A DNA stretch of 64,000 nucleotides, from NCBI RefSeq assembly GCF_000177075.1, contig NZ_ADEG01000090.1, forward strand, positions 1 through 64,000, given 5' to 3'. Position numbers and translations under genes: made by a program. The notes beneath the pieces were generated by a model. The model was not told the origin of the DNA and searched no databases. It was given only the letters and a program-made list of their open reading frames with translations. Shown here one piece after another: positions 7,934 through 13,013 of the stretch (positions are counted from its first letter, which is position 1; each line of letters starts with the position of its first letter). This DNA is from Hoylesella buccalis ATCC 35310. GTDB taxonomy: Bacteria; Bacteroidota; Bacteroidia; Bacteroidales; Bacteroidaceae.

Positions 7934-9037
7934 TCAATAAGCTATTTCCTGTTCACTCGTTGTAGGGCCATTCACCTTCAATTTGCCATCTTGGATGGTC
8001 ACTTGATCCATGAAGACGACACGCTTTGACGGGTCTGCTTGCATGCGTGCATGATATACGGTGTACATCTTGCCATCCGGCATGGTGATGAGCATGTTGT
8101 GACCCGTACCCATCACGGTACCACCCTTTGACACATTTTCTTGCAAAACAGGATTGTTCTCCGCCTTCTTGAACGGTCCCAAAGGATTTTTAGCTGTCGC
8201 ATACCCAACCGCATAGTGTGCTCCTTCAAACGAATTGGCAGAATACATCATATAATACAAGCCGTCATGCTTGAAGATATACGACCCTTCCGTCCAACGT
8301 CGATTTACTTCTCCAGACGTTACCGACCTACTCTCCCATTCCGATTGTTGGTCATCAAGCTTGGTAGGAGGAGCCAACAGCAACTTTGGTTCGCCAATCA
8401 CACCCGTGAAATCAGGCTTTAATTCAACTCCATACACCCAACTTTCTTCTACCTCATCAAACTTTCCCTCTTTTTTGGCCTTGTCAGCAATCTCGCTTTC
8501 TACAGGATGTTTGTAGCAACAACGCGAATAATACAGGTAGCACTTGTTGTTTTCATCATCAAAATAAACATTGGCATCGATGATTGGGTATGGAGGATTA
8601 AAGATAGGACGGTTTATCAAATCCCGAAAAGGACCTGTGGGTGAATCAGATACAGCGACGCCTATCTTGAAAATCTCCAATTCATTCGTTGGATTTTCCT
8701 TGGCATTAGCACAGTAAAACAGATAGTATTTCCCGTTTCGTTCATACACTTCAGGCGCCCAGAAGCAGTCTTTGTTCCACTGTTCGGCTGTCCCACCCGT
8801 ATAAATTTGACCACACGAATCCCAAGTTTTCAAATCTTCAGAGACGAAAGCTTCGAAGCCATTCGCCAGAGAAGTGCCATACATATAATATTTTCCATCG
8901 CTTGCATGTAACAAGAATGGGTCGCCAAAATTCAGAGGCAAAGGATTTTTAATAATGTTGGTATGCTGTTTTGAACATCCGATAAAAACAGACAACACAC
9001 AAAGTAATGCGATGATTACGCCTGATTGTTTCTTCAT
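7934..9037 (-). CDS. Glycoside hydrolase family 43 lipoprotein (arabinosidase/xylosidase type)
   Basis: A 367-residue exported enzyme with a lipoprotein signal (FIGC, Cys21). The GH43 five-bladed propeller triad is visible: Asp39 in FGDPF (general base), Asp154 in PIIDAN (pKa modulator) and Glu250 in WTEGSY (general acid). GH43 enzymes remove arabinose or xylose from plant polysaccharides; the exact linkage cannot be told. It starts 22 bases after the HU-LysM gene, so it may be read through from the ftsY run, or have its own unseen promoter. No susCD pair or other carbohydrate gene is adjacent, so this is an isolated GH43 rather than part of a visible polysaccharide utilisation locus. Confidence 0.9.
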   Translation of the reverse strand: MKKQSGVIIALLCVLSVFIGCSKQHTNIIKNPLPLNFGDPFLLHASDGKYYMYGTSLANGFEAFVSEDLKTWDSCGQIYTGGTAEQWNKDCFWAPEVYERNGKYYLFYCANAKENPTNELEIFKIGVAVSDSPTGPFRDLINRPIFNPPYPIIDANVYFDDENNKCYLYYSRCCYKHPVESEIADKAKKEGKFDEVEESWVYGVELKPDFTGVIGEPKLLLAPPTKLDDQQSEWESRSVTSGEVNRRWTEGSYIFKHDGLYYMMYSANSFEGAHYAVGYATAKNPLGPFKKAENNPVLQENVSKGGTVMGTGHNMLITMPDGKMYTVYHARMQADPSKRVVFMDQVTIQDGKLKVNGPTTSEQEIAY

Positions 9038-9059: not shown

Positions 9060-10436
9060 TTATTTAGATTTCTTCTTTAATTTCAATGCTGGGATTTTAA
9101 CTTTGTCACCCTCCTTCACTTCTTGCGTCTCATTCACAGCCTCCATGTAGCACTCCATGCCAGGCCCTAAGTAAGTTTTACTGATAGAAGTCAAGGTCTG
9201 TCCTTTACGCACCGTGACGGTTTGTGCCACACCCGTTATGACATAAGCTCCGGTTCTAACTCTCGGATCCGAATCATATTTTGAGGCCATTGTTTGGCTG
9301 TTCTGATGAGACTGGTCACGCTTGGCGCTCTCAGATGCCACCTTTGCAGCTGCATCCTTCTCTTGTTTCTCATTTTGAACACCATTGTGAGATTGCTCTG
9401 TTGACTGTTCACTCCGATCGGCAGCAGACGTATTTTCCTGTCCCTCACTGTCTACCGCTGCATTTTCAGAAGCCGATTCGCCTTGAACACCAGCCACGTT
9501 TTCCTTCACTTGTGCAGCTTGTTTAACAGCATGCAGCTCTGTCATCAAATGCTCTATTCGGTTATCACGAGCCGCAAACTGCTTACCGATATAATAAACG
9601 CCAAGACATGCCACTAACAGCAAAGCACATACGGCACCAATCAGTAGCTTTTGATTTCGCTGTGTTCGAGCCAAATTGGCACGCAACTGTTGATTTTTTT
9701 CATTCAACTCATTCAGTTCGGCTAACTCAAGTGATTCTTTTTCTTCGTTTTCCTTCATGGATGATTGCGATATATTGTCAGTTGTTTCTGTGACATTTCT
9801 TTCTTCCTGGATTGGTTGGTCATCAACCACAGGAGCCTCTTCAATGGGGGGAATCTCTATTACCTCTTGCTCACGCACGCCATCTTCAATGAGATTGCCA
9901 GAACGAGGCTCTGCGTCGCTGTCATTCAACACCTCCTCATTCACAGTAGATGATAGTTCTGGTAATGGTTCAGGTGATGGTTTTTCTTGAAGATTGTCCT
10001 GCGGTTCAACTTCAACCTGTTTTTCTTCCGCAGGCAAAACGGTCTCCACAGGTGCACTGCTGTCGGCATTTTCTTGTTCCTCAAGCTGCTGATAACGTTC
10101 ATCTATCTCCGAAAAATCGGCATCATCGCTCACCGTAACCGTCTCAAACTGCTCAAACGGACTGTTTACTTTATCTCTTAAGATTGGTTCGGGCGTGAAA
10201 GAAATCTTCTCTCTCCCCTCAATGATGATGCGTTCACCCGTGTTCACATCCACGCTCTCACGGGCATTCACGGATGTCACCTTGAACGTTCCAAGTCCTT
10301 TAATCTTAACTTGTTTATCGGCTTTAAGCCCCGTTGTTAAAACGTCTACGAGTAAAGGGATGAAAAATTCGGCCTCACTTTTCGATAGCTGGTGCTGTTC
10401 TTCCAACACACTCGCCAAATCTGTGATCTTTATCAT
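9060..10436 (-). CDS. Membrane-spanning HU-like DNA-binding protein with C-terminal LysM domain
   Basis: 458 residues with a striking order: HU/IHF-like domain (about 1-90, with KIKGLGTFKV and the NTGERI arm), acidic Glu/Pro-rich linker (91-230), coiled coil (231-260), one transmembrane helix (about 264-286), second coiled coil (288-310), a Gln/Ser/Ala-rich linker and a LysM domain (about 405-451, VRKGQTLTSISKTYLG). Arg/Lys residues just before the helix place the N-terminus in the cytoplasm and LysM in the periplasm. HU domains bind DNA and LysM binds peptidoglycan, so a chromosome-to-wall tether is a plausible inference. Its start overlaps the stop of the plain HU gene by 4 bases, pointing to coupled synthesis. 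Confidence 0.85.
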   Translation of the reverse strand: MIKITDLASVLEEQHQLSKSEAEFFIPLLVDVLTTGLKADKQVKIKGLGTFKVTSVNARESVDVNTGERIIIEGREKISFTPEPILRDKVNSPFEQFETVTVSDDADFSEIDERYQQLEEQENADSSAPVETVLPAEEKQVEVEPQDNLQEKPSPEPLPELSSTVNEEVLNDSDAEPRSGNLIEDGVREQEVIEIPPIEEAPVVDDQPIQEERNVTETTDNISQSSMKENEEKESLELAELNELNEKNQQLRANLARTQRNQKLLIGAVCALLLVACLGVYYIGKQFAARDNRIEHLMTELHAVKQAAQVKENVAGVQGESASENAAVDSEGQENTSAADRSEQSTEQSHNGVQNEKQEKDAAAKVASESAKRDQSHQNSQTMASKYDSDPRVRTGAYVITGVAQTVTVRKGQTLTSISKTYLGPGMECYMEAVNETQEVKEGDKVKIPALKLKKKSK

Positions 10437-10720
10437 GAGTCGCCTCCTTTCTTCAACTGTTCCTTGACAGAAGGCATGGGTCTGAAACTAAGAACCAATT
10501 TGGGAGGAACCAACATCTTCTTGCCTGTTGAAGGATTCGTCAGGATGCGTTCCATCCGCTTTTTCACTTCAAAAGTACCGAATGAAGGGATAGCAATCGA
10601 TTCGCCCTCTCCAAGAATGTTTGTCATTTCTTCCACGAGCGTACGAACATAGTTTTGCGTCTGTTCTTGCGTATAGCCTGCACGTCGTGACAATTCTGCA
10701 ATAAACTCTTTGTTATTCAT
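10433..10720 (-). CDS. HU family DNA-binding protein
   Basis: A 95-residue HU/IHF protein with the canonical layout: two N-terminal helices, IPSFGTFEV beta region and the TNPSTGKK DNA-gripping arm, ending in SFRPMPSVKEQL. It bends and compacts DNA as a dimer. It could pair with the HU domain of the next gene, with which it overlaps by 4 bases (ATGA). It lies 18 bases after rimO in the same run. Confidence 0.93.
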   Translation of the reverse strand: MNNKEFIAELSRRAGYTQEQTQNYVRTLVEEMTNILGEGESIAIPSFGTFEVKKRMERILTNPSTGKKMLVPPKLVLSFRPMPSVKEQLKKGGDS

Positions 10721-10738: not shown

Positions 10739-12037
10739 TTAGACAATCTCGCCGTACAAATCAAACTCTTCGGCATCAGTGATCTTCACTTGATAAAAAG
10801 AACCAATCTGCACGGCCTTCTGTCCACCTTGTATTAATATTTCGGGATCAACCTCTGGGGAACAAAATTCCGAGCGCCCGATAAAATAGTCATTTTCCTT
10901 CCTGTCTATGATTACTTTCATGGTTGAGCCTATCTTTGCTGCCTCTATCTCAGCACTAATTTCCTGCTGAACCGCCATCAACTCATCCAATCTTCGCTGC
11001 TTAACATCTTCAGGTATGTCGTCTGCATAGTGATTGGCACCGTAGGTTCCCTCCTCTTCCGAATACATGAAAGCACCCATGCGTTCAAATCGTGCCCATC
11101 GAACAAAGTCGAGCAACTGCTGAAAATCTTCCTCTGTTTCGCCAGGAAACCCAACCATCAGCGTGGTGCGCAGATGAATGCCCGGCACCTTTTCCCGAAT
11201 GGTGCAAATCAAATCCATGGTTTCCTGCTTGTTCACATGCCTGTGCATGCGCTCAAGTACCGAGTCGGAGATATGCTGCAGCGCGATATCAAGATACTTG
11301 CAGACGTTTTGTTTCTCGTTCATCACGTCCAAAAGCTCAAGTGGAAACTGGTTCGGATAAGCATAATGCAAGCGTATCCACTCAACACCTTCTATGTCAG
11401 CCATCTCACTAATCAAGTCAGCGATATGTCGTTTTCCATCAAGGTCCACCCCATAATAAGTCAACTCTTGGGCGATGATTTGAAACTCTTTCATCCCATC
11501 AGCCACCAAGTTACGAACCTCTTGTAGAATTTCGTCTTTCGGTCGGCTGACATGCTTGCCAGTAATGATTGGAATGGCACAATAGGCGCAGTGGCGATCA
11601 CAGCCCTCCGCTATTTTGATGTATGCATAATGAGCGGGTGTCGTGAGATGTCGCTGACCGCTGCAAGCCTTGATTTCAGCCTTTCCCAAATCAGCCAACA
11701 GCTGCTTGTAATTGAACTTGCCATAGAATTTGTCCACCTCAGGAATCTCATTTTCAAGCTCATTCTTATAGCGTTCACTGAGGCAACCCATGACAAAAAG
11801 TTTGTTCAAACGACCTTCTTTCTTCGCTTCAACAAATTGAAGTATCGTATTGATACTCTCCTCTTTAGCTGTTTCAATAAATCCGCATGTATTGATTACT
11901 GCAATCTCACCATCAGGTTGTTCGCTGTCGTGCGTGCAGTCGTACCCATTCGCTTCAAACTGCTTCATCAGCGTCTCGCTGTCAACGAGATTCTTTGAGC
12001 AGCCCATCGTAATGATATCTATCTGATTCTTCTTCAA
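10739..12037 (-). CDS. rimO: Ribosomal protein S12 methylthiotransferase RimO
   Basis: 432 residues. Adds a methylthio group to the conserved Asp of ribosomal protein S12, using two [4Fe-4S] clusters. The N-terminal MTTase domain carries Cys13, Cys51 and Cys85. The radical SAM triad is Cys146, Cys150 and Cys153 (CDRHCAYC). The C-terminus is a TRAM domain (about 365-432). The opening MGCSKNLVDSE is diagnostic of RimO rather than MiaB. It starts 16 bases after the ftsY stop. Confidence 0.96.
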   Translation of the reverse strand: MKKNQIDIITMGCSKNLVDSETLMKQFEANGYDCTHDSEQPDGEIAVINTCGFIETAKEESINTILQFVEAKKEGRLNKLFVMGCLSERYKNELENEIPEVDKFYGKFNYKQLLADLGKAEIKACSGQRHLTTPAHYAYIKIAEGCDRHCAYCAIPIITGKHVSRPKDEILQEVRNLVADGMKEFQIIAQELTYYGVDLDGKRHIADLISEMADIEGVEWIRLHYAYPNQFPLELLDVMNEKQNVCKYLDIALQHISDSVLERMHRHVNKQETMDLICTIREKVPGIHLRTTLMVGFPGETEEDFQQLLDFVRWARFERMGAFMYSEEEGTYGANHYADDIPEDVKQRRLDELMAVQQEISAEIEAAKIGSTMKVIIDRKENDYFIGRSEFCSPEVDPEILIQGGQKAVQIGSFYQVKITDAEEFDLYGEIV

Positions 12038-12053
12038 AATTATAGATTTTCTG

Positions 12054-13013
12054 TTATGATTCGTGCTGGAACAAACTGTCTACAAACTCTCGTCTGTTGA
12101 ACAACTGCAAATCATCCATCTGTTCACCCAGTCCGATATATTTCACAGGCACCTTCAGTTGGTCACTGATACCGATGACCACGCCCCCCTTGGCCGTTCC
12201 ATCCAATTTTGTGATGGCCAGCGAGGTAATCTGAGTGACGGCAGAGAACTGCTTTGCTTGCTCAAAAGCGTTTTGTCCCGTGCTGCCATCCAAGACGAGC
12301 AACACCTCATCAGGAGCTTGAGGCAGCACTTTTTTCATCACATCTTTGATTTTCTTCAATTCGTTCATCAAACCCACTTTGTTGTGCAAGCGCCCAGCTG
12401 TATCGATTAACACCACGTCGGCCCCATTAGCCTTTGCACTTTGCAGCGTATCAAACGCCACCGAAGCCGGGTCGGCCCCCATCTGTTGACTCACCACAGG
12501 CACGCCTACCCTTTCGCCCCAAATCTTGATTTGGTCTACGGCAGCTGCGCGATAGGTGTCGGCAGCTCCCAGGAATACCTTTTTACCCGATGCCTTAAAC
12601 TGATAAGCCAGTTTGCCGATGGTTGTGGTTTTGCCAACCCCATTGACACCAACGACCAAGATAACATACGGCTGATGGTCGGCAGGTAAGTCCCAATTCT
12701 CGTGATCCTCAGTGTTGTTTTCAGCCAATAAGGCCGCAATCTCATCGCGCAAGATGGAATTGAGTTCAGCAGTTGACACATACTTGTCGCGTGCCACCCT
12801 TTGCTCGATACGCTCAATGATTTTCAGCGTTGTGCCAACACCGACATCCGATGTGACGAGCACCTCTTCCAAGTTGTCCAGCACCTCGTCATCAACCTTA
12901 GACTTACCGGCAACCGCACGTGACAACTTTGAGAATACACTCTGCTTGGTCTTTTCCAGACCCTGATCCAGCGTTTCTTTTTTCTTCTTATTGAACAGAC
13001 CAAAAATACCCAT
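12054..13013 (-). CDS. ftsY: Signal recognition particle receptor FtsY
   Basis: 319 residues. Membrane-associated GTPase that receives SRP-bound ribosomes. The NG domain is complete: GVNGVGKTTT (G1), DTYRAAAVDQ (G2), DTAGR (G3), TKLDGTAKGG (G4) and a GLGEQ-type closing motif (G5). The acidic A domain of E. coli FtsY is absent; only a short basic N-terminus (FNKKKKE) precedes NG, as in other Bacteroidetes. First gene of the ftsY-rimO-HU-HU/LysM-GH43 run. Confidence 0.96.
   Translation of the reverse strand: MGIFGLFNKKKKETLDQGLEKTKQSVFSKLSRAVAGKSKVDDEVLDNLEEVLVTSDVGVGTTLKIIERIEQRVARDKYVSTAELNSILRDEIAALLAENNTEDHENWDLPADHQPYVILVVGVNGVGKTTTIGKLAYQFKASGKKVFLGAADTYRAAAVDQIKIWGERVGVPVVSQQMGADPASVAFDTLQSAKANGADVVLIDTAGRLHNKVGLMNELKKIKDVMKKVLPQAPDEVLLVLDGSTGQNAFEQAKQFSAVTQITSLAITKLDGTAKGGVVIGISDQLKVPVKYIGLGEQMDDLQLFNRREFVDSLFQHES

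Follow-up and report, generated by a model that had tools for sequence, protein, structure and literature searches.

Does a protein with an HU domain at one end and a LysM domain at the other hold the nucleoid to the cell wall, and does it do so alone? This question is raised by a gene of Hoylesella buccalis ATCC 35310, which occupies positions 9060-10436 on the minus strand of the 64,000 nucleotides of contig sequence analysed here, referred to as the window; all other features given below with window coordinates lie on the same strand. The ORF starts with ATG, its coordinates are exact, and it encodes a protein of 458 aa, which is assigned by ORF, Pfam and homologues as an HU-TM-LysM protein and putative membrane-anchored subunit. 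The preliminary description of the window, made from the letters alone, had read the order HU domain, acidic linker, membrane helix and LysM, and exactly this order is borne out by Pfam, AlphaFold2, Foldseek and the homologues. A chance or spurious ORF is ruled out by the conservation of the protein and by a dN/dS of 0.01 in its HU domain.

The N-terminal HU domain (residues 1-92, positions 10161-10436) is matched by PF00216 over residues 5-91 with an E-value of 2.8e-17 (63.2 bits against a cut-off of 22.4). Its HU/IHF fold is predicted by AlphaFold2 using ten orthologues and is also found by Foldseek, which returned many HU/IHF entries (E 2.5e-7). HU and IHF bend DNA through two beta-arms with an intercalating proline at the tip, and the NPxTG arm is typical of the DNA-bending members of the superfamily, to which proteins without it can also belong. 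In the 458-aa protein this arm is missing from the HU domain, which reads VDVNTGE at the respective position, as recorded in the arm survey described below. The HU domain is followed by a conserved signature (residues 93-115, positions 10092-10160) with the family pattern VN.P[FY]..FE, which was recognised from alignments and from a dN of 0; its fuller form in Bacteroidales, NKPFSQFETV.LNDGV, persists also in proteins that have lost the HU arms. Next comes an acidic low-complexity linker (residues 116-224, positions 9765-10091), delimited by composition, low pLDDT and dN/dS, with 29% D/E and 5% K/R over residues 92-230. The Pfam matches CD34_antigen and Trypan_PARP were judged to be artefacts of low-complexity linker sequence. 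The single transmembrane helix (residues 265-283, positions 9588-9644), assigned by hydrophobicity and AlphaFold2, lies within a long predicted helix (225-316) that passes through the membrane, and the model contains a second helix at 351-388 and linkers of low confidence. The coiled coils that had been described on both sides of the membrane correspond to these two predicted helices.

At the C-terminus, the LysM domain (residues 398-453, positions 9078-9245) was assigned from a predicted beta-alpha-alpha-beta fold, from LysM matches in Foldseek and VIA, and from weak Pfam evidence. The window protein does not reach the Pfam cut-off for LysM (PF01476, 13.0 bits versus 20.9, E 0.1). When the last 69 residues were predicted alone, the beta-alpha-alpha-beta arrangement was obtained with a mean pLDDT of 81.5, and it matched mostly LysM structures of the PDB with Foldseek (probabilities close to 1, lowest E 0.035) and mostly LysM chains with VIA (Z about 6, 46-57 residues aligned), among the matches being Kbp, T. 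thermophilus NlpC/P60, Ecp6, SleL and YkuD. A Z of about 6 is modest when taken alone, but the LysM call is upheld by the LysM-dominated match list and by homologues that match PF01476 directly, which holds for 8 of 34 (best E 1e-6); the fused homologue L112 also lies above the cut-off with 22.7 bits. On the basis of the models, their structural matches and the homologues, the C-terminal end of the 458-aa protein is supported as a LysM fold that is degenerate by Pfam, and wall binding by this predicted domain is plausible.

The topology was compared in 120 HU-TM-LysM proteins, 117 of which have one hydrophobic segment. The K/R counts on the two flanks of this segment favour a cytoplasmic N-terminus in 89 proteins and a cytoplasmic C-terminus in 15, with a tie in 16. 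Furthermore, a cytoplasmic N-terminus is supported by the fusion to a soluble HU in some loci and by the partner HU being a small soluble protein. The placement of HU inside the cell and LysM in the periplasm, which had been proposed from the positive charges in the window protein, agrees with most of the set.

This partner is encoded at positions 10433-10720, directly upstream. It is an HU protein of 95 aa with an NPSTG arm (PF00216, E 3.7e-25, 88.4 bits), and its stop codon shares the sequence ATGA (positions 10433-10436, from the ORF coordinates) with the start codon of the HU-TM-LysM gene. The preliminary description had noted a 4-base overlap with an ordinary HU gene, and the overlap is exact, but the gene is not ordinary. 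In a tree of HU domains all 27 sampled partners form one clade (98/97) and all 27 anchored HU domains another (100/96), both apart from generic HU, among which the housekeeping HU of the window genome, L138, is placed; the partner clade lies nearer to the generic HU. Because the partners form a clade of their own, the partner is a dedicated paralogue and not an ordinary HU, an assignment for which PF00216 and adjacency were used in addition to the clade.

The 120 loci, which come from many Bacteroidales families and from one family of another class (f135), show how regularly the two genes are found together. In 115 loci the partner HU is encoded by a separate ORF immediately upstream, on the same strand, and in four it is fused into the HU-TM-LysM ORF; the remaining locus, L122, is cut by a contig end. 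The separate genes are at most 25 nt apart in 107 of the 115 pairs and overlap in 80. All four fused proteins (L094/L108, L110, L112 and L125) have the order HU-HU-TM-LysM, and on the tree of genus g27, another genus of the same family as the window genome, the fusion label changes four times, gains and losses taken together, with at least two of these changes forced by well-supported branches. Moreover, the distances among partners and among anchored HU domains are correlated (r = 0.78), which partly reflects shared species history. As for IHF, there are thus two dedicated paralogous subunits that are inherited together, in separate clades and side by side or fused in 119 of 120 loci, which is in line with the earlier suggestion that the overlapping HU could be the partner. 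As far as the compared sequences tell, the conserved unit is the gene pair and not the 458-aa protein alone.

In the window the pair is preceded by rimO (positions 10739-12037, TIGR01125 and synteny), whose adjacency is lineage-restricted, and by ftsY (positions 12054-13013, TIGR00064 and synteny), and both are given as context only. The order ftsY-rimO is found near the pair in the family of the window genome and in some others, and elsewhere the neighbours are moxR, rho, a gene for an MscL-like channel or others, so the pair persists while its neighbours change. The synteny with rimO and ftsY was accordingly rejected as a functional clue, since it is lineage-restricted and the context varies. 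A GH43 family gene (positions 7934-9037, Pfam E 5.5e-56) begins 22 nt downstream of the HU-TM-LysM gene, and of the loci examined for it, only those of the window genome and of a close relative, L032, have it in full length at this position. The same genome also encodes a 160-aa HU-like protein (L142, G000:C83:23003-23155) whose match to PF00216 (E 7.7e-7) spans roughly half of the model.

The same domain order, which had been proposed as a search target across Bacteroidales, was found in many of their families and also in f135, a family of a different class that could be Balneolaceae, although this name is only a guess. A homology search detected homologues in most Prevotella-type relatives, and by our own count about 45 of the 295 Bacteroidales genomes in the sample contain strong matches (E below 1e-24), so the function is not universal. 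In genus g27 a match is present in 57 of 60 genomes, and all 30 loci that were read are a pair or a fusion. The named records of homologues belong to an uncultured Bacteroidales bacterium and to members of Prevotellaceae and Paludibacteraceae. When the best few candidates per genome were scored in further orders of the class, a procedure by which divergent copies could escape, the top hits were HU proteins about 95 aa long that stand alone. Two loci have unusual forms: in L101 (1190-2220) the HU part and the TM-LysM part are in two overlapping ORFs of different frames, owing to either a frameshift or a sequencing error, and the HU-TM-LysM homologue encoded by L058 (52-2217) is 721 aa long and has a much enlarged linker. 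Selection on the window protein was estimated against a 90%-identical orthologue of Prevotella sp. BV3P1 (L032). Besides the very low value for the HU domain, dN/dS is 0.00 (dN 0) in the 23 post-HU residues and 0.18 in the LysM domain, and it amounts to 0.21 for the region of the membrane helix and to 0.34-0.38 for the two linkers (0.34 for residues 116-255). Both the HU and the LysM end are under purifying selection, the spacers much less so, and these mainly provide length.

The two HU domains of the pair differ in their arms and charge. Counted with our own class boundaries and regular expressions, and excluding anchored HU domains in which the arm could not be delimited, an NPxT arm is found in the anchored HU of 2 of 61 other Bacteroidales, 0 of 26 in genus g27 and 7 of 7 in f135. 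The arm proline of the partner is present in 70 of 73 other Bacteroidales, 21 of 25 in genus g27 and 16 of 17 in f135, altogether 107 of 115. In Bacteroidales the HU domain of the anchored protein has a median net charge of -1 or -3, and that of the partner +5 or +3. Moreover, 13 of 26 anchored HU domains in genus g27 and 4 of 61 in other Bacteroidales have arms that are shorter or missing. The affected loci include L095, L096, L097, L098 and L099 and about half of L109-L137, in all of which partner, membrane helix and LysM remain. The earlier idea that the 458-aa protein binds DNA through its own HU domain is therefore not supported, considering the rarity of NPxT in Bacteroidales, a charge near zero or negative and the loss of the arms in several lineages, whereas the partner usually retains the features for DNA binding. 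In L095, L098 and L099 not only the arms of the anchored HU are lost but the partner arm reads DLSTG without proline, so that DNA bending is doubtful there. The asymmetry is absent or reversed in f135, where the anchored HU has an NPQTG arm and the partner is not basic (median charges 0 versus -1), and arm and charge asymmetry is therefore not general. Since the anchored HU has canonical NPxTG arms in f135, L100 and L103, DNA binding looks ancestral.

The best explanation for these observations, although we hold it with as much doubt as confidence, is a dedicated heterodimer of the HU/IHF type that tethers the nucleoid to the cell wall. The soluble HU (10433-10720) would be one half of the heterodimer and would, with its basic arm tipped by proline, make most of the contact with DNA, and the HU domain of the larger protein would mainly be the dimerisation half. 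The HU-HU-TM-LysM fusions offer indirect support for such a dimer. A flexible acidic spacer would link the HU complex to the helix in the inner membrane, and the periplasmic LysM would hold peptidoglycan, so that the pair could act as a multivalent tether of low specificity between nucleoid and cell wall. This might serve chromosome positioning or segregation, or keep the chromosome clear of the division site or attached to it.

The main rival is that the HU fold was repurposed as a protein-protein docking module, by which the partner HU or another cytoplasmic factor is recruited to the wall, with neither HU binding DNA in the cell. A comparable case is RodZ, whose HTH domain binds MreB. It counts against the tether that HU-like domains can serve as protein-protein modules, as in eukaryotic CCDC81, and so do the lost arms and partner prolines of L095, L098 and L099, the missing asymmetry in f135, the restriction of strong matches to a minority of Bacteroidales genomes, and the LysM of the window protein, which is degenerate by Pfam and has Kbp among its closest structural matches. 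A docking role would fit the anchored HU of Bacteroidales, which has neither intercalating proline nor net basic charge and in some loci shortened or deleted arms, as well as the loss of the partner proline in L095, L098 and L099 and the post-HU signature that is invariant between close orthologues. However, most partners keep their arm proline, are basic in Bacteroidales and lie nearer to generic HU, the anchored HU of f135, L100 and L103 has the canonical arm, and a family profile of the anchored HU finds IHF-alpha as its best sequence match in the PDB. We regard a docking role without DNA binding as unlikely.

The closeness of the family profile to IHF-alpha, a site-specific relative of HU, would also suit a membrane-bound regulator, in which the wall or fragments of glycan are sensed by LysM while the HU/IHF-like pair works at defined sites of the chromosome, similar to one-component membrane regulators; a single membrane helix and one periplasmic domain of a ligand-binding type agree with this. 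Nevertheless, no activation or wHTH domain was found by Pfam in the 458-aa protein, the long, low-complexity and weakly constrained spacers fit a flexible tether better than signal transmission, and the varying neighbour genes leave no constant local target, which makes a regulator improbable. Finally, the partner could be a free nucleoid protein that is merely co-transcribed, and the anchored protein could work alone as a homodimer, as adjacent genes are not required to form a complex and homodimers are common among HU proteins. Such independence is improbable in our view, because the pair is retained in many families and in a second class although its context changes, because the fusions need at least two label changes, and because an independent homodimer would hardly account for the arm asymmetry seen in Bacteroidales.

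Returning to the tether, a wider formulation can be given, which we put forward tentatively and with somewhat more doubt than confidence: the pair would be an ancient two-gene module of Bacteroidota, a split HU heterodimer with a DNA-gripping and a wall-anchored half that physically couples the nucleoid to peptidoglycan through the inner membrane and exists beside the tandem-HU protein HU-CCDC81-SPOR, its anchored subunit progressively losing the arms in some lineages and its genes having fused more than once. To our knowledge, chromosome positioning and segregation relative to the envelope have been little studied in Bacteroidota, and the two-gene pair is a concrete target for work on this positioning. 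If DNA and wall binding hold true, the pair would connect chromosome and peptidoglycan mechanically and directly, and it would be an HU-fold pair that divides the labour between gripping DNA and anchoring. In the open-access literature we found nothing on the HU-TM-LysM architecture or on any test of wall tethering.

Compared with known systems, the idea of such a tether is of a kind that existed before, since HU-CCDC81-SPOR of Bacteroidota (PF18174, PF18175 and PF05036) is already a known architecture; HU-SPOR type proteins had been named as a related idea from the start, and one is present in the same genome (L071, G000:C73, with all three domains and a hydrophobic segment near residue 200). 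Burroughs et al. are said to have predicted a chromosome-partition role for the HU-CCDC81 family in 2017. Both architectures have N-terminal HU-type domains, a single membrane helix and a C-terminal domain of a peptidoglycan-binding type, and the tandem HU-HU order of HU-CCDC81-SPOR is that of the natural HU-HU-TM-LysM fusions. Unlike HU-CCDC81-SPOR, however, the pair has LysM instead of SPOR, and its second HU is encoded separately in almost every locus. With Pfam, PF18175 reaches only 14.6 bits on the window protein versus a cut-off of 35, PF18174 is not reported and SPOR was not found, and with the models below cut-off the protein is ruled out as a plain member of that family. Family profiles place HU-CCDC81 about equally far from the anchored HU, the partner and generic HU, with weak matches to all three, which speaks neither for nor against a common origin. 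The source genome carries two different predicted HU-to-wall proteins. PF18175 is found in 261 of 295 Bacteroidales genomes (E up to 1e-5), and a replacement of HU-CCDC81-SPOR by HU-TM-LysM was rejected, as both co-occur here and, judged by eye, in most genomes with the pair. The heterodimers IHF alpha/beta and HU alpha/beta likewise consist of two dedicated HU-fold paralogues, whereas here one subunit of the putative dimer is membrane-anchored with a domain of a wall-binding type, and its arm is without intercalating proline in most Bacteroidales. The LysM domain shares the beta-alpha-alpha-beta fold of PF01476, its nearest structures being Kbp, a potassium-binding protein, the LysM of T. thermophilus NlpC/P60, SleL and YkuD; in contrast to typical LysM, the window copy is below the Pfam cut-off and lies at the periplasmic end of a protein that crosses the membrane once and has its HU domain in the cytoplasm. 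RodZ and MapZ are single-pass linkers from the cytoplasm to the wall and resemble the window protein in having a cytoplasmic binding domain, one membrane helix and an extracytoplasmic domain, but the cytoplasmic domain here has an HU fold and a dedicated HU partner.
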